Shown in pieces: positions 13,027 to 24,191 of a stretch of 47,739 nt of DNA; positions within the stretch are counted from its first letter, which is position 1, and every line of letters starts with the position of its first letter. The notes beneath the pieces were generated by a model. That model was not told the DNA's origin. It saw only the letters and a program-made list of their open reading frames with translations, and searched no databases. The translations under genes were made by a program, and so were the position numbers. This stretch comes from Erysipelotrichaceae bacterium (lineage in GTDB: Bacteria > Bacillota_I > Bacilli_A > Erysipelotrichales > Erysipelotrichaceae), in the NCBI GenBank assembly GCA_030525525.1, contig JAUNEN010000016.1:1-47739 (forward strand), in the 5' to 3' direction.

Positions 13027-14253
13027 TTACTGATTCTGAAGTTTTTTGTTCAGCATAGCCTGAACTTTGATCGGCAGACCGTAGAGTCTGATGAATCCTC
13101 TTGAATCCGTCTGGTCGTAATCGGATTCACCGAAGGATGCGAGATCTTCACTGTACAGTGAATAGTCGCTCCATACGCCGCCCTTGATGACATTTCCTTT
13201 GTAGAGGATCAGCTTCACCTTGCCGGTGACTGTTTCCTGTGTTTTATCAACGAATGCGCTGAGTGCTTCTCTCAGCGGTGTGAACCACTGTCCGTTATAG
13301 ACAAGATCTGCGAATGTCAGTGCCAGTTCAGCCTTCTTATGAGCAGTCATCTTATCCAGCGTAATGCTTTCAAGATAGGAGTGTGCTTCATAGAGGATGG
13401 TTCCTGCCGGAGTTTCATAAACGCCTCTGCTCTTCATGCCGACAAGTCTGTTTTCAACAAGGTCGAGAAGACCGATGCCGTTCTTTCCGCCGATTTCATT
13501 GAGGGCAAGGATGATTTCCTTGACGCTCATCTTTTCGCCATTCAGCTTCACAGGAACGCCCTGCTCGAATTCGAGTTCGATTTCAGTCGGTTCATCCGGC
13601 GCAGCCATCGGGGAAACGCTCATTTCCAGGAAACCGGGCTTGTCATACTGCGGCATGTTTCCGGGATTTTCAAGGTCAAGACCTTCATGGCTTAAGTGCC
13701 ACATGTTCTTGTCCTTGGAGTAGTTTGTTTCTCTGGAAATCTTGAGCGGAATGTTATGAGCTTCCGCATAATCGATTTCTTCATCTCTTGATTTGATATC
13801 CCATTCTCTCCACGGTGCGATGATCGGCATATCGGGAGCGAAGTGTGCAATCGCAAGTTCGAATCTGACCTGATCGTTGCCCTTGCCTGTGCAGCCATGG
13901 CAGATTGCATCTGCGCCTTCCTTGAGGGCAATTTCTACAAGACCCTTGGCAATGAGCGGTCTTGCATGGCTTGTGCCGAGCAGATAGCCTTCATAGGCAG
14001 CGCCTGCCTTTAAGCAGGGAACGATATAGTCATCTGCATATTCATCGGTGAGATCCAGCACATAGAGCTTGGAAGCACCTGTTTTCAATGCTTTTTCTTC
14101 AAGGCCTTCGAGTTCGTCATTCTGTCCGACATTTCCGGAAACAGCGATGACTTCGCAGTTGTTGTAGTTTTCCTTGAGCCAGGGAATGATGATTGATGTA
14201 TCCAGACCGCCGCTGTAAGCGAGTACGACTTTTTTGATGTTTTCCTTATTCAT
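13027..14253 (-). CDS. argG: argininosuccinate synthase
   Basis: 408 aa. It condenses citrulline and aspartate with ATP. The N-terminal P-loop AYSGGLDTS begins at residue 13 and [15 protein letters not shown] near residue 117 is the citrulline-binding signature. The start at 14251-14253 has GAGGAG seven bases upstream. It is the first long gene of the arginine block and follows a T-box leader and a 30-codon ORF whose stop codon overlaps the argG start. Confidence 0.97.
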
Positions 14254-14354: not shown

Positions 14355-14626
14355 CAAAAACGCCCTCCGAGCAGTTGCTCAAAGGACGTGTTAACGCGGT
14401 GCCACCTTAATTCCCGTCTTCATCAGAAAACGGACTCTCTTTCCCTTAACGCGGTTTCTACGGGAATCCACTCGGCAAATGCTTCGCAGACCCTGCTCCG
14501 GGACACGTTCTTTCCGCTTTCCTTTACCCTCTTCCACCATACAGGGCTCGCTTGAAAGCTTTTGCGGAGATACTACTTCCCTTCTCAGCTTTACGGGTAT
14601 TATAAATGGTGATTTCAGATTTGCAA
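14355..14626 (-). promoter_or_regulatory. T-box leader of the arginine operon with promoter
   Basis: Minus strand. The promoter is TTGCAA (14621-14626), 16 bases, TATAAT (14599-14604). Stem I elements follow: an AGTA box, and an apical loop with the GGTG motif closed by CCCT/AGGG. The trinucleotide CGT (14505-14507), just after GAA, fits the specifier position and would read Arg. The conserved T-box AAGGTGGCACCGCG is at about 14396-14409. The terminator stem ACGTCCTTTGAGCA with its partner lies at 14360-14389, followed by five T. Uncharged tRNA pairing would stabilise the antiterminator and switch on argGHCJBD-carAB. The specifier assignment is inference. Confidence 0.92.
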
Positions 14627-19158: not shown

Positions 19159-19187
19159 TTGCTTTTATGCATGTTAATCATTAATAT
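19159..19187 (+). promoter_or_regulatory. promoter of the methionine operon
   Basis: TTGCTT (19159-19164), a 17-base spacer and TAATAT (19182-19187). Transcription would begin near 19194, giving a leader of about 170 bases before metA. Confidence 0.65.
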
Positions 19188-19211
19188 ATTGTTAATACCG
19201 GGGAGAATCAG

Positions 19212-19265
19212 GTGAAAACAAACTCGATCAACAACAGCATCCGAATGCGTATGCCGGAGCGATAA
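19212..19265 (+). CDS. metA leader peptide (17 codons, two internal Met codons)
   Basis: GTG at 19212-19214 is preceded by GGGGAG (19200-19205) with a 6-base spacer. The product is MKTNSINNSIRMRMPER, ending at TAA 19263-19265. Two ATG codons lie at 19245-19247 and 19251-19253, the second inside the pairing segment that controls the antiterminator. A ribosome stalled at these codons would free segment 2 to form the antiterminator; a ribosome reaching the stop would mask segment 2 and allow termination. This is the classical logic of amino acid attenuation, here read for methionine. The peptide is inferred, not proven to be translated. Confidence 0.55.
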   Translation: MKTNSINNSIRMRMPER

Positions 19266-19313
19266 CGGCATTCTTTCGTATGTCTGATGCAAATCAACGT
19301 AAACAGAAAGAAT

Positions 19314-19351
19314 ACCGATGTCATGATGAAAAGACATCGGTTTATTAATTT
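19314..19351 (+). terminator. terminator hairpin within the metA leader
   Basis: Nine-base-pair stem ACCGATGTC/GACATCGGT with a 10-base loop and the tail TTTATTAATTT. It ends just before the metA ribosome binding site AAGGGAGGT (19352-19360), so it acts as an attenuator. Confidence 0.75.
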
Positions 19352-19365
19352 AAGGGAGGTTACCT

Positions 19366-20331
19366 ATGCCGATCAGAATTCCGAATGAACTGCCTGCAGC
19401 TGATATTCTTGAATCCGAGAATATCTTCGTCATGCGGGAAACAAGAGCGGAAAGCCAGCAGATCAGACCGCTGAGAATACTTGTGCTCAATCTCATGCCT
19501 TTGAAGATTGTGACCGAAACACAGCTGGCAAGATTACTGGGAAACACACCGCTTCAGGTAGAAATGGAGCTGCTCGCAATCAGCGGCAGACAGCCCAAGC
19601 ACACACCTCAGGAGCACATGCTTGCTTTTTATCAGAGCTTTGAGGATGTGAAGAACAATAACTATGACGGAATGGTCATCACCGGAGCGCCGGTTGAACA
19701 CATGCCGTTTGAAGAAGTGGATTACTGGGATGAGCTATGTGAAATCATGGAATGGTCAACCACCCATGTGCACAGCACCTTCCACATCTGCTGGGGAGCG
19801 CAGGCAGGCCTGTATTATCACTACGGTATTGAAAAGATTGCCCTGCCTGAAAAGATGTTCGGTGTCTTCCCGCATAAAGTGACACATAAGGGGTCCATCC
19901 TGTTCAGAGGATTTGATGATACTTTCATGGTTCCCCATTCCCGCCACACAGCGATCCGCAAAGAAGACATTCTGAATGAACCGCAGCTGAAGATTCTTGC
20001 CGAAAGCGAGGAAGCAGGCGTCTATGCAATTTCAACGGATCTGGGAAGACAGATCTTTATCACCGGTCATTCCGAATATGATCCGGATACACTCGAAAAA
20101 GAATACCTGCGTGACAAAAACGCCGGACTGCCGATTCATGTGCCGTATAACTACTACCCCGATGACGATGATACAAAGAGGCCTGTGTGCACATGGAGAT
20201 CAAGCGCCAACCTGCTTTATTCCAACTGGCTGAACTATTTCGTTTATCAGGAAACACCGTATGACCTCAGCGAAATTGCCAGATTCAACGCGGAAAGAAA
20301 AGCGAGGAAGGCACATCATGAAGATCAGTAA
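19366..20331 (+). CDS. metA: homoserine O-acyltransferase MetA (acetyl type)
   Basis: 321 aa MetA-family acyltransferase. It activates homoserine for methionine synthesis. The nucleophile is Cys142 in [15 protein letters not shown], and the catalytic HSEYD (His235, Glu237) is present. Residue 111 is Glu (TGAPVEHM). In this family Glu111 has been linked to acetyl-CoA use and Gly111 to succinyl-CoA use, so O-acetylhomoserine is the likely product despite the usual 'succinyltransferase' label. It is the first gene of metA-metF-reactivation-metH and overlaps metF by 14 bases. Confidence 0.95.
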
Positions 20332-21178
20332 ACTGCTTGAAGAAGATAAGATCACTCTTTCGTTTGAAGTATTCCCGCCCAAAAGAGCGGAATCCTTCGA
20401 CGCTGTCAAAAACGCTTCCGAAACAATCGCTTCCTTCCATCCTGATTTCATGAGTGTCACATATGGTGCCGGCGGCAGCACTGCCGGTTTTACGGCCGAG
20501 CTGGCAGCTGAGCTGAAAAAGGATACGGGCGTTCCCGTCCTTCCTCATCTGACATGCGTCGGCTCTTCAAAAGAACATGTCGATCATATGGTCGAAACCT
20601 ATGTGAATGAGCAGATTGACAACATCATGGTTTTAAGAGGCGATCTGCCCTCTGACGGCATTGTTGAACATGACTTTGAGCATGCCAGCGATCTGATTGC
20701 CTACATCAAGGAGAAGACGGATCTCTGCATCGGCGGAGCCTGCTATCCGGAAGGACATGTTGAAAGCCGCAATAAAAACATGGATCTGAAATATCTCAAA
20801 GCCAAGGTGGATGCCGGCTGTGATTTCCTGACAACCCAGATGTTTTTTGACAACAACATCTTCTATAACTTTCTCTACCGTGCCCGCGAAGCAGGCATCA
20901 ACGTTCCCATTCTTGCCGGCATCATGCCGATCACCAATGCAAAGCAGCTTGCCCGTTCGGTTGCCCTTTCCGGCACAAATGTACCGGAACGCTTCCGGGC
21001 AATCGTCGATACCTTTGCAGATCATCCTGCCGCAATGAAGCAGGCAGGCATTGTCTATGCTTCAGAGCAGATCATCGATCTGATTGCCAACGGCGTGAAG
21101 CACATCCATGTCTATTCAATGAACAAGCCGGATGTGGCCGAAGGCATTCTCAATAACCTTTCGGAAATCATCAGATGA
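20318..21178 (+). CDS. metF: 5,10-methylenetetrahydrofolate reductase
   Basis: 286 aa. It reduces methylene-THF to methyl-THF, the methyl donor for MetH. I start it at ATG 20318-20320, inside the end of metA, where GAGGAAGG provides the ribosome binding site; the longer frame from 20261 would run far into metA. The TIM-barrel FAD enzyme signature is seen in [12 protein letters not shown] (near 15), PHLTCVG and LRGDLP (near 105), [10 protein letters not shown] (near 180) and GIMPI. The stop overlaps the next gene by four bases. Confidence 0.96.
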
Positions 21179-21795
21179 ATATCAGCAGAAAAGAAATCAG
21201 ACGCTATCTCGGCATGATGAATGCCATCGATGAGGAAACAGACTCTCTGATCGAGGAGTGTGTTGCGCTTCTTGAACAGACTGCGCATCCCCGCTACATT
21301 TATGTCCGTTTCCCTTTGATTTTCCGGGAAGGATATCCGTGTATCGAATCCCACATGATCAGAAGCAGAAATCTTGCGGACAATCTTGCCGGATGCAGGG
21401 AAGTCACAATCATGGCGGTGACATTAGGAGCGGATGTGGACAGACTGATCCAGAGATACAGCATTCTTTCGATGTCGAAAGCAGCTGTTCTTCAGGCTGC
21501 ATCAGCCGCCATGTGCGAAGAGGTGTGCGATCATGTCAACAGAATGATCACCATCGAAGCAAAACGCGATCACATGAAGACGCATCCCCGCTTTTCACCC
21601 GGGTACGGCGATCTGGATCTTTCCACACAGAAGCTGATCTTTTCTCTGATCAACCTGCCGAAGGAAATCGGACTGACACTGAATGACTCACTGCTGATGA
21701 CACCTTTCAAATCAGTGACTGCCTTCATCGGACTTGAAGCGGCCGACACTGATTCTGACAGTTTTGAAGATCACCATGAGGAGGAAGATGAATGA
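21175..21795 (+). CDS. stand-alone methionine synthase reactivation-domain protein
   Basis: 206 aa. It resembles the C-terminal AdoMet-binding activation domain of cobalamin-dependent MetH: RFSPGYGDLDLSTQKLIFSLI (about 139-160) contains the RxSPGYxD core, followed by IGLTLNDSLLMTPFKSVTAFIG. The downstream MetH lacks this domain, so the pair forms a split enzyme, as described for Thermotoga maritima. The protein would help reductive remethylation of oxidised cob(II)alamin. The tail is very acidic (DSDSFEDHHEEEDE). It overlaps both neighbours by four bases, so expression is tightly coupled. Confidence 0.9.
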   Translation: MNISRKEIRRYLGMMNAIDEETDSLIEECVALLEQTAHPRYIYVRFPLIFREGYPCIESHMIRSRNLADNLAGCREVTIMAVTLGADVDRLIQRYSILSMSKAAVLQAASAAMCEEVCDHVNRMITIEAKRDHMKTHPRFSPGYGDLDLSTQKLIFSLINLPKEIGLTLNDSLLMTPFKSVTAFIGLEAADTDSDSFEDHHEEEDE

Positions 21796-24191
21796 AAACA
21801 TTCAGAGAACGAATCGGAAATGAATGGCTGTTTTTTGACGGCGGTACAGGATCTGTTCTTCAGAAAATGGGTTTAAAGGGAGGCGAGCTTCCCGAAGAAT
21901 GGAATCTGAAATATCCGGAAAGAATCATGGAATTGTACAAAGGCTATCTGAATGCCGGCTGCGATATTTTCAATGCCAACACATTCGGTGCCAACCGCCT
22001 TCACTATCCTGACAATGTCGAAGAAATCATCACTGCCGCTGTTGAGCTTGCCAAAAAAGCAAGACATGAATGCGGCAGAGAAGATGCGTTCATCACAATC
22101 GACATCGGTCCGAGCGGCAAACTGCTTGAACCTTTGGGCGATCTCTCGTTTGAAGATGCAGTTGATCTTTTTTCAGAATCGATTAAAGCCGGCTCGAAGG
22201 CAGGTGCCGATCTTGTATTGATTGAAACGATGAATGACACCTATGAGGCAAAGGCTGCCGTCGTTGCCGCAAAGCAGAGCTGCGATCTGCCGGTGTGCAT
22301 TACCCTCACCTTTGATGAAAACGGCAAGCTGCTGACCGGCGGTTCCATTGAAGCTGCAGTTGCCATGCTGGAAGGACTCAAAGTCGATGCGCTTGGCGTC
22401 AACTGCTCGCTCGGCCCGCGGGAAATGTTACCGATTGTCAGAAGACTCACTGCCGCGGCTTCAATCCCGGTCATTGTCAATCCGAATGCCGGCCTGCCTG
22501 TCACACGACACGGCATGACGGTTTATCCGGTCGGGGCCGATGAGTTTGCAGAGTTAATGGATCAGATCACCGATCTCAATGTGCAGGCAGTCGGCGGCTG
22601 CTGCGGAACAACACCCGAACATATCAGAAAGCTGAAAGAAGTCATTTCAAAAAAGCCTTTCAGAAAGCAGACATATAAAAACAGAACGGTCGTTTCTTCC
22701 TGGTCGCGTGAAGTATTGATCGAAGATAAGACAGTGATCATCGGTGAGCGTATCAACCCCACCGGCAAGAAAGCATTCAAGCAGGCACTTCGTGATCACA
22801 ATATCGATTACATCATCACCGAAGGATTGAAACAGGAAGAAGCCGGTGCCGATATCCTCGATGTCAATGTCGGCCTGCCGGAAATCGATGAGCCGGCTTT
22901 GATGACGGAAGTTGTCACAAAGCTGCAGGCACTGACACCTCTTCCCTTACAGCTTGATTCTTCCGATCCCGAAGCACTCGAACGGGCAATGCGCATTTAC
23001 AACGGCAAGCCGATGATCAACTCGGTCAACGGCAAAGATGAAACAATCCGTTCTGTCATGCCGCTGATCGCAAAATACGGCGGTGTGTTAGTCGGGCTTT
23101 GTCTTGATGAAAAGATTCCCGAAACAGCGGACGGACGCATCAATGTGGCAAAGAAAATTCTCAAAGCTGCCGAAGACTATGGGATTGAGCCGAAGGATCT
23201 CATCATCGACGGTTTATGCATGACTGTCTCTGCCGATTCCTCCAGCGCGCTCACAACTCTTGAAACAATCAGACGTGTCCGTGATGAACTTCATGTCAAA
23301 TCCATTCTCGGTGTTTCCAACATCTCCTTCGGCCTTCCCCAGCGCTCTGTCGTCAATGCCTATTTCCTGGCAATGGCAATGAACAACGGCCTTTCAGCCG
23401 CGATCATCAATCCCAACAATGCAGAAATCATGGCCGCTTACCGCAGCACCAATGCGCTGCTTGGCAAAGATCCCAACTGCATGGATTATATTACAGCATA
23501 TGCAGATGCGCCGGTAATGAAAGCACCTGCTGCCGTAAAACCGGCACAGAAAGAAACAGCAGACATCTCCAGAAGCAATCTTCATGAATGCATTGTCAAA
23601 GGCCTGGCATCAAAGGCAGAGCTTGCCGCATCCGAAGCATTGAATAACGGGATCGAGGCACTCCGCATCATTGAAGAAGAAATCGTCCCTGCTCTTGATG
23701 AAGTGGGAAAAGGATATGAATCAGGATCAATCTTCCTGCCTCAGCTGTTGATGAGCGCAGATGCCGCCAAAGCCGCATTTGTGCCGATCAAGGAAAGTCT
23801 TTCCGCATCCGAGCAGACAATCAAGGGCCGTATTATCCTTGCGACCGTCAAAGGCGACATCCATGACATCGGCAAGAATATTGTCAAAGTCATGATGGAA
23901 AACTATGGCTATGAGGTGATTGATCTTGGCAAGGATGTCGCACCGGAAACAATCGTTGAGACAGCGATCAGAGAGAATATCAGACTGGTTGGTTTATCTG
24001 CCCTCATGACAACAACGGTCGGTGCGATGGAGGAAACCATCAAGCTTCTCAGAGAGAGAAAACCCGATACAAAAGTCATTGTCGGCGGTGCTGTCCTGAC
24101 TCAGGAATATGCTGATTCCATCGGTGCCGATGCATATGGAAAAGATGCCATGGCATCCGTACGGTATGCCGACAGCATCTTCACCCACTGA
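21792..24191 (+). CDS. metH: cobalamin-dependent methionine synthase lacking the activation domain
   Basis: 799 aa, against about 1200 for full MetH. The homocysteine domain (1-290) has zinc ligands Cys205 (GVNCSLGP), Cys270 and Cys271 (GGCCGTTP). The methyl-THF/pterin domain spans about 312-580 (IGERINPTGKK at 317). The cap and cobalamin domains fill 590-799, with the axial His691 in GDIHDIGKN. The C-terminal AdoMet domain is absent and supplied by the preceding gene. It transfers methyl from methyl-THF to homocysteine. The nearby cobalamin riboswitch with uptake genes fits its cofactor need. Confidence 0.97.
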   Translation: MKTFRERIGNEWLFFDGGTGSVLQKMGLKGGELPEEWNLKYPERIMELYKGYLNAGCDIFNANTFGANRLHYPDNVEEIITAAVELAKKARHECGREDAFITIDIGPSGKLLEPLGDLSFEDAVDLFSESIKAGSKAGADLVLIETMNDTYEAKAAVVAAKQSCDLPVCITLTFDENGKLLTGGSIEAAVAMLEGLKVDALGVNCSLGPREMLPIVRRLTAAASIPVIVNPNAGLPVTRHGMTVYPVGADEFAELMDQITDLNVQAVGGCCGTTPEHIRKLKEVISKKPFRKQTYKNRTVVSSWSREVLIEDKTVIIGERINPTGKKAFKQALRDHNIDYIITEGLKQEEAGADILDVNVGLPEIDEPALMTEVVTKLQALTPLPLQLDSSDPEALERAMRIYNGKPMINSVNGKDETIRSVMPLIAKYGGVLVGLCLDEKIPETADGRINVAKKILKAAEDYGIEPKDLIIDGLCMTVSADSSSALTTLETIRRVRDELHVKSILGVSNISFGLPQRSVVNAYFLAMAMNNGLSAAIINPNNAEIMAAYRSTNALLGKDPNCMDYITAYADAPVMKAPAAVKPAQKETADISRSNLHECIVKGLASKAELAASEALNNGIEALRIIEEEIVPALDEVGKGYESGSIFLPQLLMSADAAKAAFVPIKESLSASEQTIKGRIILATVKGDIHDIGKNIVKVMMENYGYEVIDLGKDVAPETIVETAIRENIRLVGLSALMTTTVGAMEETIKLLRERKPDTKVIVGGAVLTQEYADSIGADAYGKDAMASVRYADSIFTH

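Follow-up and report, generated by a model that had tools for sequence, protein, structure and literature searches.

The leader upstream of metA in an Erysipelotrichaceae genome is most plausibly a transcription attenuator in which the ribosome senses charged methionyl-tRNA, a reading to which we assign a probability of roughly three in four. The window analyzed here is the whole 47,739-nt stretch of contig JAUNEN010000016.1 (Erysipelotrichaceae bacterium), one contig of a 3.5-Mb draft genome, and its metA locus (L001) was compared with those of its four congeneric relatives (L002 to L005). In the proposed mechanism, RNA polymerase would transcribe a short leader open reading frame (ORF) ahead of metA. 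Were Met-tRNA ample, the ribosome would pass the RMRM codons and reach the stop codon, where its footprint would cover positions 19261-19277; the terminator at 19314-19341 would then form, and transcription would end before metA-metF-metH. Were Met-tRNA scarce, the ribosome would stall at the Met codons and leave 19261-19277 free to pair with 19306-19322, which would pre-empt the 5′ arm of the terminator and allow the operon to be transcribed. We infer that the leader peptide is translated, that ribosomes stall at its Met codons and that transcription terminates at this site in the cell.

Elements of the metA leader and its operon

All elements of the leader and operon lie on the plus strand. 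The gene metA (homoserine O-acetyltransferase, 19366-20331, ATG at 19366; NF047918, over its cut-off) is followed by metF (methylenetetrahydrofolate reductase, 20318-21178; TIGR00676, over its cut-off), a gene for a methionine-synthase activation-domain protein (21175-21795; Pfam PF02965) and a metH-like gene for a B12-dependent methionine synthase (21792-24191; family searches). Because neighboring genes overlap by a few bases each, the leader probably controls the complete methionine operon. A cobalamin riboswitch (RF00174, 26198-26396) lies about 2 kb past the metH-like gene on the minus strand. Upstream of the leader, weak promoter-like hexamers (TTGCTT, 19159-19164; TAATAT, 19182-19187) are separated by a 17-nt spacer that contains the palindrome ATGCATG (19167-19173). 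TTGCTT or TTGATT and TAATAT align in all five leaders, L001 to L005; since a consensus promoter scan did not flag the hexamers, the promoter at 19159-19187 is a putative one.

Between this putative promoter and the first gene lies a short ORF led by a Shine-Dalgarno (SD) sequence, in the same place as in the four relatives. As originally predicted, a purine-rich ribosome-binding site (GGGGAG, 19200-19205) precedes a GTG start codon (19212-19214) that opens a 17-codon peptide, VKTNSINNSIRMRMPER (19212-19265), with TAA as its stop (19263-19265). The proposed stall codons, ATG CGT ATG (19245-19253), place Met at 19245-19247 and 19251-19253; GGCAT (19267-19271) and the terminator were likewise found where predicted. 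Codons for the end product thus stand at the control point, two here and one to three in the relatives. A count of two internal Met codons among 16 is by itself not improbable (P about 0.08 at 3% Met); the weight for a Met leader is carried by conservation and by independent examples.

An intrinsic terminator precedes the structural genes. Its 9-bp hairpin pairs ACCGATGTC (19314-19322) with GACATCGGT (19333-19341) across a 10-nt loop (-12.6 kcal/mol) and is followed by a U-rich tail of only moderate quality, TTATTAATTT (19342-19351; tail score 2.89), and by the metA ribosome-binding site AGGGAGG (19353-19359), which is unpaired in the terminator. A simple promoter/terminator scan, which admits loops of up to 8 nt and so passes over one of 10 nt, did not flag this terminator. 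The competing antiterminator joins a 5′ arm, GATAACGGCATTCTTTC (19261-19277), to a 3′ arm, GAAAGAATACCGATGTC (19306-19322), whose final part doubles as the terminator 5′ arm; the helix (GATA-a-CGG-c-ATTCTTTC with GAAAGAAT-a-CCG-a-TGTC) therefore occupies the complete terminator 5′ arm. Its free energy was -17.6 kcal/mol, against -10.3 ± 2.1 (standard deviation) when the upstream leader was shuffled 300 times with dinucleotides preserved, and no shuffle was as good. The whole leader was likewise more stably folded than expected by chance (z = -2.44), with 3 of 200 shuffles matching it.

Several details of the original prediction needed revision. The pairing of GGCATTCTTTC with GAAAGAATACC (19306-19316) is present, but it contains a C-A mismatch (19269/19314) and forms part of the longer helix, and the overlap with the terminator, put at 3 nt, extends over the whole 5′ arm. 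The stop codon, thought to lie two bases before the pairing segment, is actually inside the antiterminator arm. The proposed ATGCC:GGCAT hairpin does exist, as a weak protector hairpin at 19251-19271 (ATGCCG, 19251-19256, with CGGCAT, 19266-19271) that holds the stop codon in its loop, but it is weaker than the antiterminator and is shared by L001 and L002 only, having lost one pair in L003 and been replaced in L004 and L005.

To relate these pairings to ribosome position, nascent RNA was folded with a ribosome footprint; the resulting values vary with the assumed footprint and serve as illustration. With the ribosome waiting at the conserved CGA-ATG codon, the terminator 5′ arm was captured upstream with a mean pairing probability of 0.67-0.88 in L001 to L005, and with the ribosome at the stop codon and all RNA 5′ of it unavailable, capture was 0.00-0.33 (0.55-0.62 in L004 and L005 if RNA 5′ of the ribosome may pair). 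In the window, capture reached 0.77 with the ribosome at the first Met codon but fell to 0.36-0.37 with it at the second, a drop that weighs against the attenuator reading; at the stop codon, capture was 0.12 (0.41 if upstream RNA may pair). By these calculations, the antiterminator would exclude the terminator, being free when the ribosome stalls and masked when it reaches the stop codon. Capture in the window without a ribosome was 0.77, i.e., untranslated RNA is predicted to favor the antiterminator, so the off state would depend on translation.

Conservation of the leader within the genus

metA was detected in 26 of 70 genus genomes, and the leader element was found in five of these 70 (the window genome and 4 of 69 congeners; L002 to L005 identity, 89-93%), each time upstream of metA, with metF and the activation-domain gene following in 5/5. 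A sequence model of the five leaders, run against 273 family genomes, gave strong matches (97-120 bits) at these five metA loci only, with no further copy above noise (next best 22 bits, E > 1e-4). In the alignment, the purine-rich ribosome-binding site and the GTG or ATG start of L002 to L005 occupy the same place as in the window; across all five leaders, the SD sequence and start lie 30 or 33 nt before an invariant CGAATG, always in frame, and the in-frame motif RM[RPC][MIL] is kept in the relatives. The five peptides (VKTNSINNSIRMRMPER, MIRKYAAENMRMPMPR, MIRKYAAENMRMPLPR, MEKTAFRQNRMCIPEIHAGILLYVYDC and MGRKAFMQKRMRITAHRTGILLYVYNH, start written M except in the first) are otherwise poorly conserved, and peptide length, stop position and pairing register have all changed. 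The leader alignment proposed as a check on the original prediction thus bears it out for the start, the in-frame Met motif, the paired changes of the terminator and an antiterminator over its 5′ arm, both described below, but not for stop position or register, and one relative (L004) has a single internal Met codon; in L003, one Met codon is lost (ATG to TTG). In L001 to L003, the stop codon directly precedes the antiterminator arm or falls within it, and in L004 and L005 it lies beyond the arm; under either layout, a ribosome at the stop codon would mask the arm wholly or partly.

The five leaders share a nearly invariant block, CGGCATYCTTTYGTATGTY, which pairs with the terminator 5′ arm. 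In L002 to L004, this pairing comprises CGGCATC with GGTGCCG or GATGCCG, plus GTATGTTT with AAACATAC, with G-U pairs in places; L005 has the same GTATGTTT:AAACATAC helix with the first helix shifted, and the window uses a shifted register. Antiterminators over the 5′ arm as good as the observed ones arose in 0, 10, 8, 0 and 1 of 300 shuffles (L001 to L005, respectively). The terminator hairpin, for its part, shows paired changes between lineages (ACCGATGTC/GACATCGGT, ACCGGTGCC/GGCACCGGT and CCCTGATGC/GCATCAGGG). This conservation bears on an explanation without attenuation, whereby the hairpin would simply end transcription coming from upstream or contribute to stability, with the operon controlled by a DNA-binding regulator on the ATGCATG palindrome. 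ATGCATG or ACATGCnnGCATGA palindromes, sometimes in two copies, do occur near metA promoters of the genus (L011 to L019), where they are a possible operator for some regulator, and the U-tract is moderate. However, the antiterminator is above chance in 5/5 leaders, and a hairpin that lies between promoter and gene and is maintained through paired changes has no easy alternative account, making this explanation improbable. A DNA-binding regulator could also act in addition to attenuation.

Riboswitch searches at metA and metK

In Firmicutes, control of methionine genes is generally attributed to SAM riboswitches, T-boxes or repressors. Rfam searches of the metA leader at gathering and permissive thresholds returned no aptamer and two chance-level matches only. 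Consistent with the original prediction, neither the S-box (RF00162) nor the T-box (RF00230) matched this leader; the sole T-box in the window (101.8 bits, 14379-14595, minus strand) lies upstream of argG (13027-14253, minus strand). For other Rfam cis-regulatory families, the leaders of the window and its relatives gave no match above gathering and no credible weak match, so that an aptamer of known kind, whose covariation was to count against attenuation, did not appear. Across 19 leader loci scanned against Rfam, including those of other methionine operons described below, no leader had a match, and the Met leaders scanned are not covered by Rfam. A raiA RNA (RF03072, 194.6 bits) was matched at 604-822 on the minus strand of L158, near the metA locus of a G274-related genome.

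An undescribed riboswitch, in which SAM, methionine or homocysteine would bind the conserved CGGCATCCTTTCGTATGTT region and favor the terminator, could account for the roughly 19 nearly invariant nucleotides of the five leaders, and SAM riboswitches are present in the same genomes. We nonetheless regard such an aptamer as unlikely: no Rfam family matches the leader, the register and spacing of the antiterminator, unlike those of an aptamer, differ between L001, L002/L003 and L004/L005, two pairing roles account for the conserved stretch, and the SD sequence, start and reading frame are preserved.

The window genome carries two SAM-I matches, one before metK (L205; G000:C152:39974-40061) and another at L206 (G000:C80:5035-5127). 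The S-box resembles the proposed attenuator in controlling methionine genes through transcription termination, but it senses SAM via an aptamer, whereas the metA leader would read Met-tRNA via the ribosome. Given a SAM riboswitch before metK in the same genome, the two signals would be read separately; if the attenuator reading is true, metK would respond to SAM and metA to Met-tRNA within a single cell.

Met-rich leaders before other methionine operons

Leaders with a Met-rich peptide and a terminator also precede metA elsewhere (e.g., MTRNRRSMRMGRMPQQPA, MLSRSMMMMRMYMPMGMC... and MSKNSYTMMLMCCMMMRGSAFGVY...). The leaders of L036 and L037 (labeled Clostridia/Clostridiales) and L158 (MTRNRRSMRMGRMPQQPA, MARGIVNMCMRRRQRQPA and MARFFREMYMCRWQKQPA, respectively) all end in CAGCCTGCTTGA, a segment that pairs with the terminator 5′ arm in L036 and L037; in L158, the best upstream partner of the 5′ arm differs from this conserved segment. 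An uncultured Clostridia (L068) has MLSRSMMMMRMYMPMGMCTIRHGLNRDAAAPQ, and L111/L180 (in a record labeled Synergistaceae) and its relatives L181, L183, L184 and L185 share M...LMC[CS]MMMR[GR]SAFGVY[NY]GSSR[PS]. As the antiterminator test was not significant in L036, L068 and L252 (73, 86 and 72 of 300 shuffles as good, respectively), the case for these three is built on the Met-rich peptide and the terminator. In operons elsewhere, metA often lies directly behind metY; nothing would be expected right before such a metA, and leaders were then sought before metY. The metY-metA leaders found are Met-rich, often with MMM (MKQNMLSSMMMPSAAFAAS, MKMNMVSSMMMPCAVFGCF, MLKRTYNGFYMMMPITVFSRF, MNMAYDFNMMMPCTVFGSLVC, MNMIHRAVMMMCDTACVNAL, MKTVYTHTTMMMRSTACV, MKNSVYMCMMMFRTALSLR, MLYSASMMMPKLPSRSAPASAAP and others). 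Five of the six MMM leaders tested have an antiterminator segment that starts 8-14 nt after the first MMM base, within the reading frame. A further leader, MRTATVCNSMMMEMYMCGMCKMMCAQKCDSPCVLSV (MRTATVCNSMMMEMYMCGMCKMMC...; L299, minus strand, 286-396 of the reverse complement), is rich in Met and Cys, has 36 codons and a strong terminator, and precedes genes that, judged from their sequence, read as metN-metI-metQ, an ABC transporter of the methionine importer type.

At a stricter threshold, a terminator-coupled Met-rich ORF was found upstream of metA in 5 of 182 cases and upstream of other genes in 3 of 577; two of the latter three are the metY leaders of L064 and L103. Triplets of identical residues in SD-led short ORFs were counted for all 20 amino acids upstream of met operons and controls. 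MMM was the sole triplet clearly enriched before met operons (14/278 versus 5/703 controls, P = 4.5e-5), and Ser was in deficit there. Three of the five MMM controls were the same Met leaders or the metNIQ one. This P value overstates independence because leaders within one group are related, and part of the regions in the MMM count had been chosen on account of a leader already observed in the family. Together with the leader in four congeners and the absence of a known aptamer, unrelated met operons that appear to follow the same logic lend support, at the level of sequence, to the Met attenuator that was originally predicted.

The same translation-coupled attenuator might respond to another signal, namely Arg codons, a general slowing of translation, or nascent-peptide arrest on RM-x-M-P. 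Met specificity at the window locus would hang on one to three codons per peptide, and Arg is about as frequent as Met across the five peptides; Arg beside Met is also common in leaders of unrelated groups. A Met-Pro step (Ile-Pro in L004) follows the control codons in L001 to L004, L036, L068, L101, L103, L251, L259, L262, L281 and L293, a recurrence over several groups that may stem from base pairing or from peptide-specific pausing. In independent groups, however, the residue enriched is Met, accompanied by some Cys, with MMM standing out among the triplets, and all operons concerned serve methionine synthesis or uptake. A signal other than Met is thus doubtful, if somewhat less so than a riboswitch or control without attenuation. 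More speculatively, and with low probability, the recurring step (RMRMP, MPMP, MMMP) may also act as a peptide-dependent pause through which methionine or SAM is sensed on the ribosome; such a pause would have arisen or spread more than once ahead of metA, metY and metNIQ across several bacterial groups, with the SAM riboswitch remaining on metK.

Met-tRNA attenuation at metA would have clear counterparts. Attenuators of the trp/his type (Proteobacteria) and His leaders in Erysipelotrichales, Peptostreptococcaceae and the Bacillus cereus group (PMC9413887) share with the window an SD-led ORF, control codons, an antiterminator that excludes an intrinsic terminator and a cognate operon; His leader attenuators have also been described in bacilli (PMC2965389). 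The former His leaders include the bacterial order of the window, although the window has Met codons, only two of them and none adjacent. In another phylum, Campylobacter jejuni is credited with a MetL leader peptide and the Met-rich CJsORF19 (MMYQMR), the latter preceding a methionine-transport gene; translation there is backed by ribosome profiling (PMC11955535). Streptomyces lividans metL, MSTTSDRTPATEATTTPGARCMCRRMCAF, resembles the L299 leader in that its peptide contains Met, Cys and Arg and a methionine operon, metNIQ, follows, but it has a leaderless start and reportedly lacks a typical Rho-independent terminator (PMC8079986). This kind of switch is hence already known, and what is new, as far as we found, is its occurrence at metA in these bacteria. 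A search of open-licence papers returned no report of Met leaders preceding metA or metY in Firmicutes, though an earlier description elsewhere is possible. If the attenuator reading holds, part of the met genes of Firmicutes would read Met-tRNA charging via a decoy peptide, and the leaders gathered here, well over a dozen from several sequence groups, offer a test set for the origin of such attenuators and the recurrence of Met-Pro. One of the metY leaders, MYKASCNCMMCRDMRWEMRMRFALPV (L064, 2247-2327), combines many Cys with many Met residues, as though both sulfur amino acids were being read.
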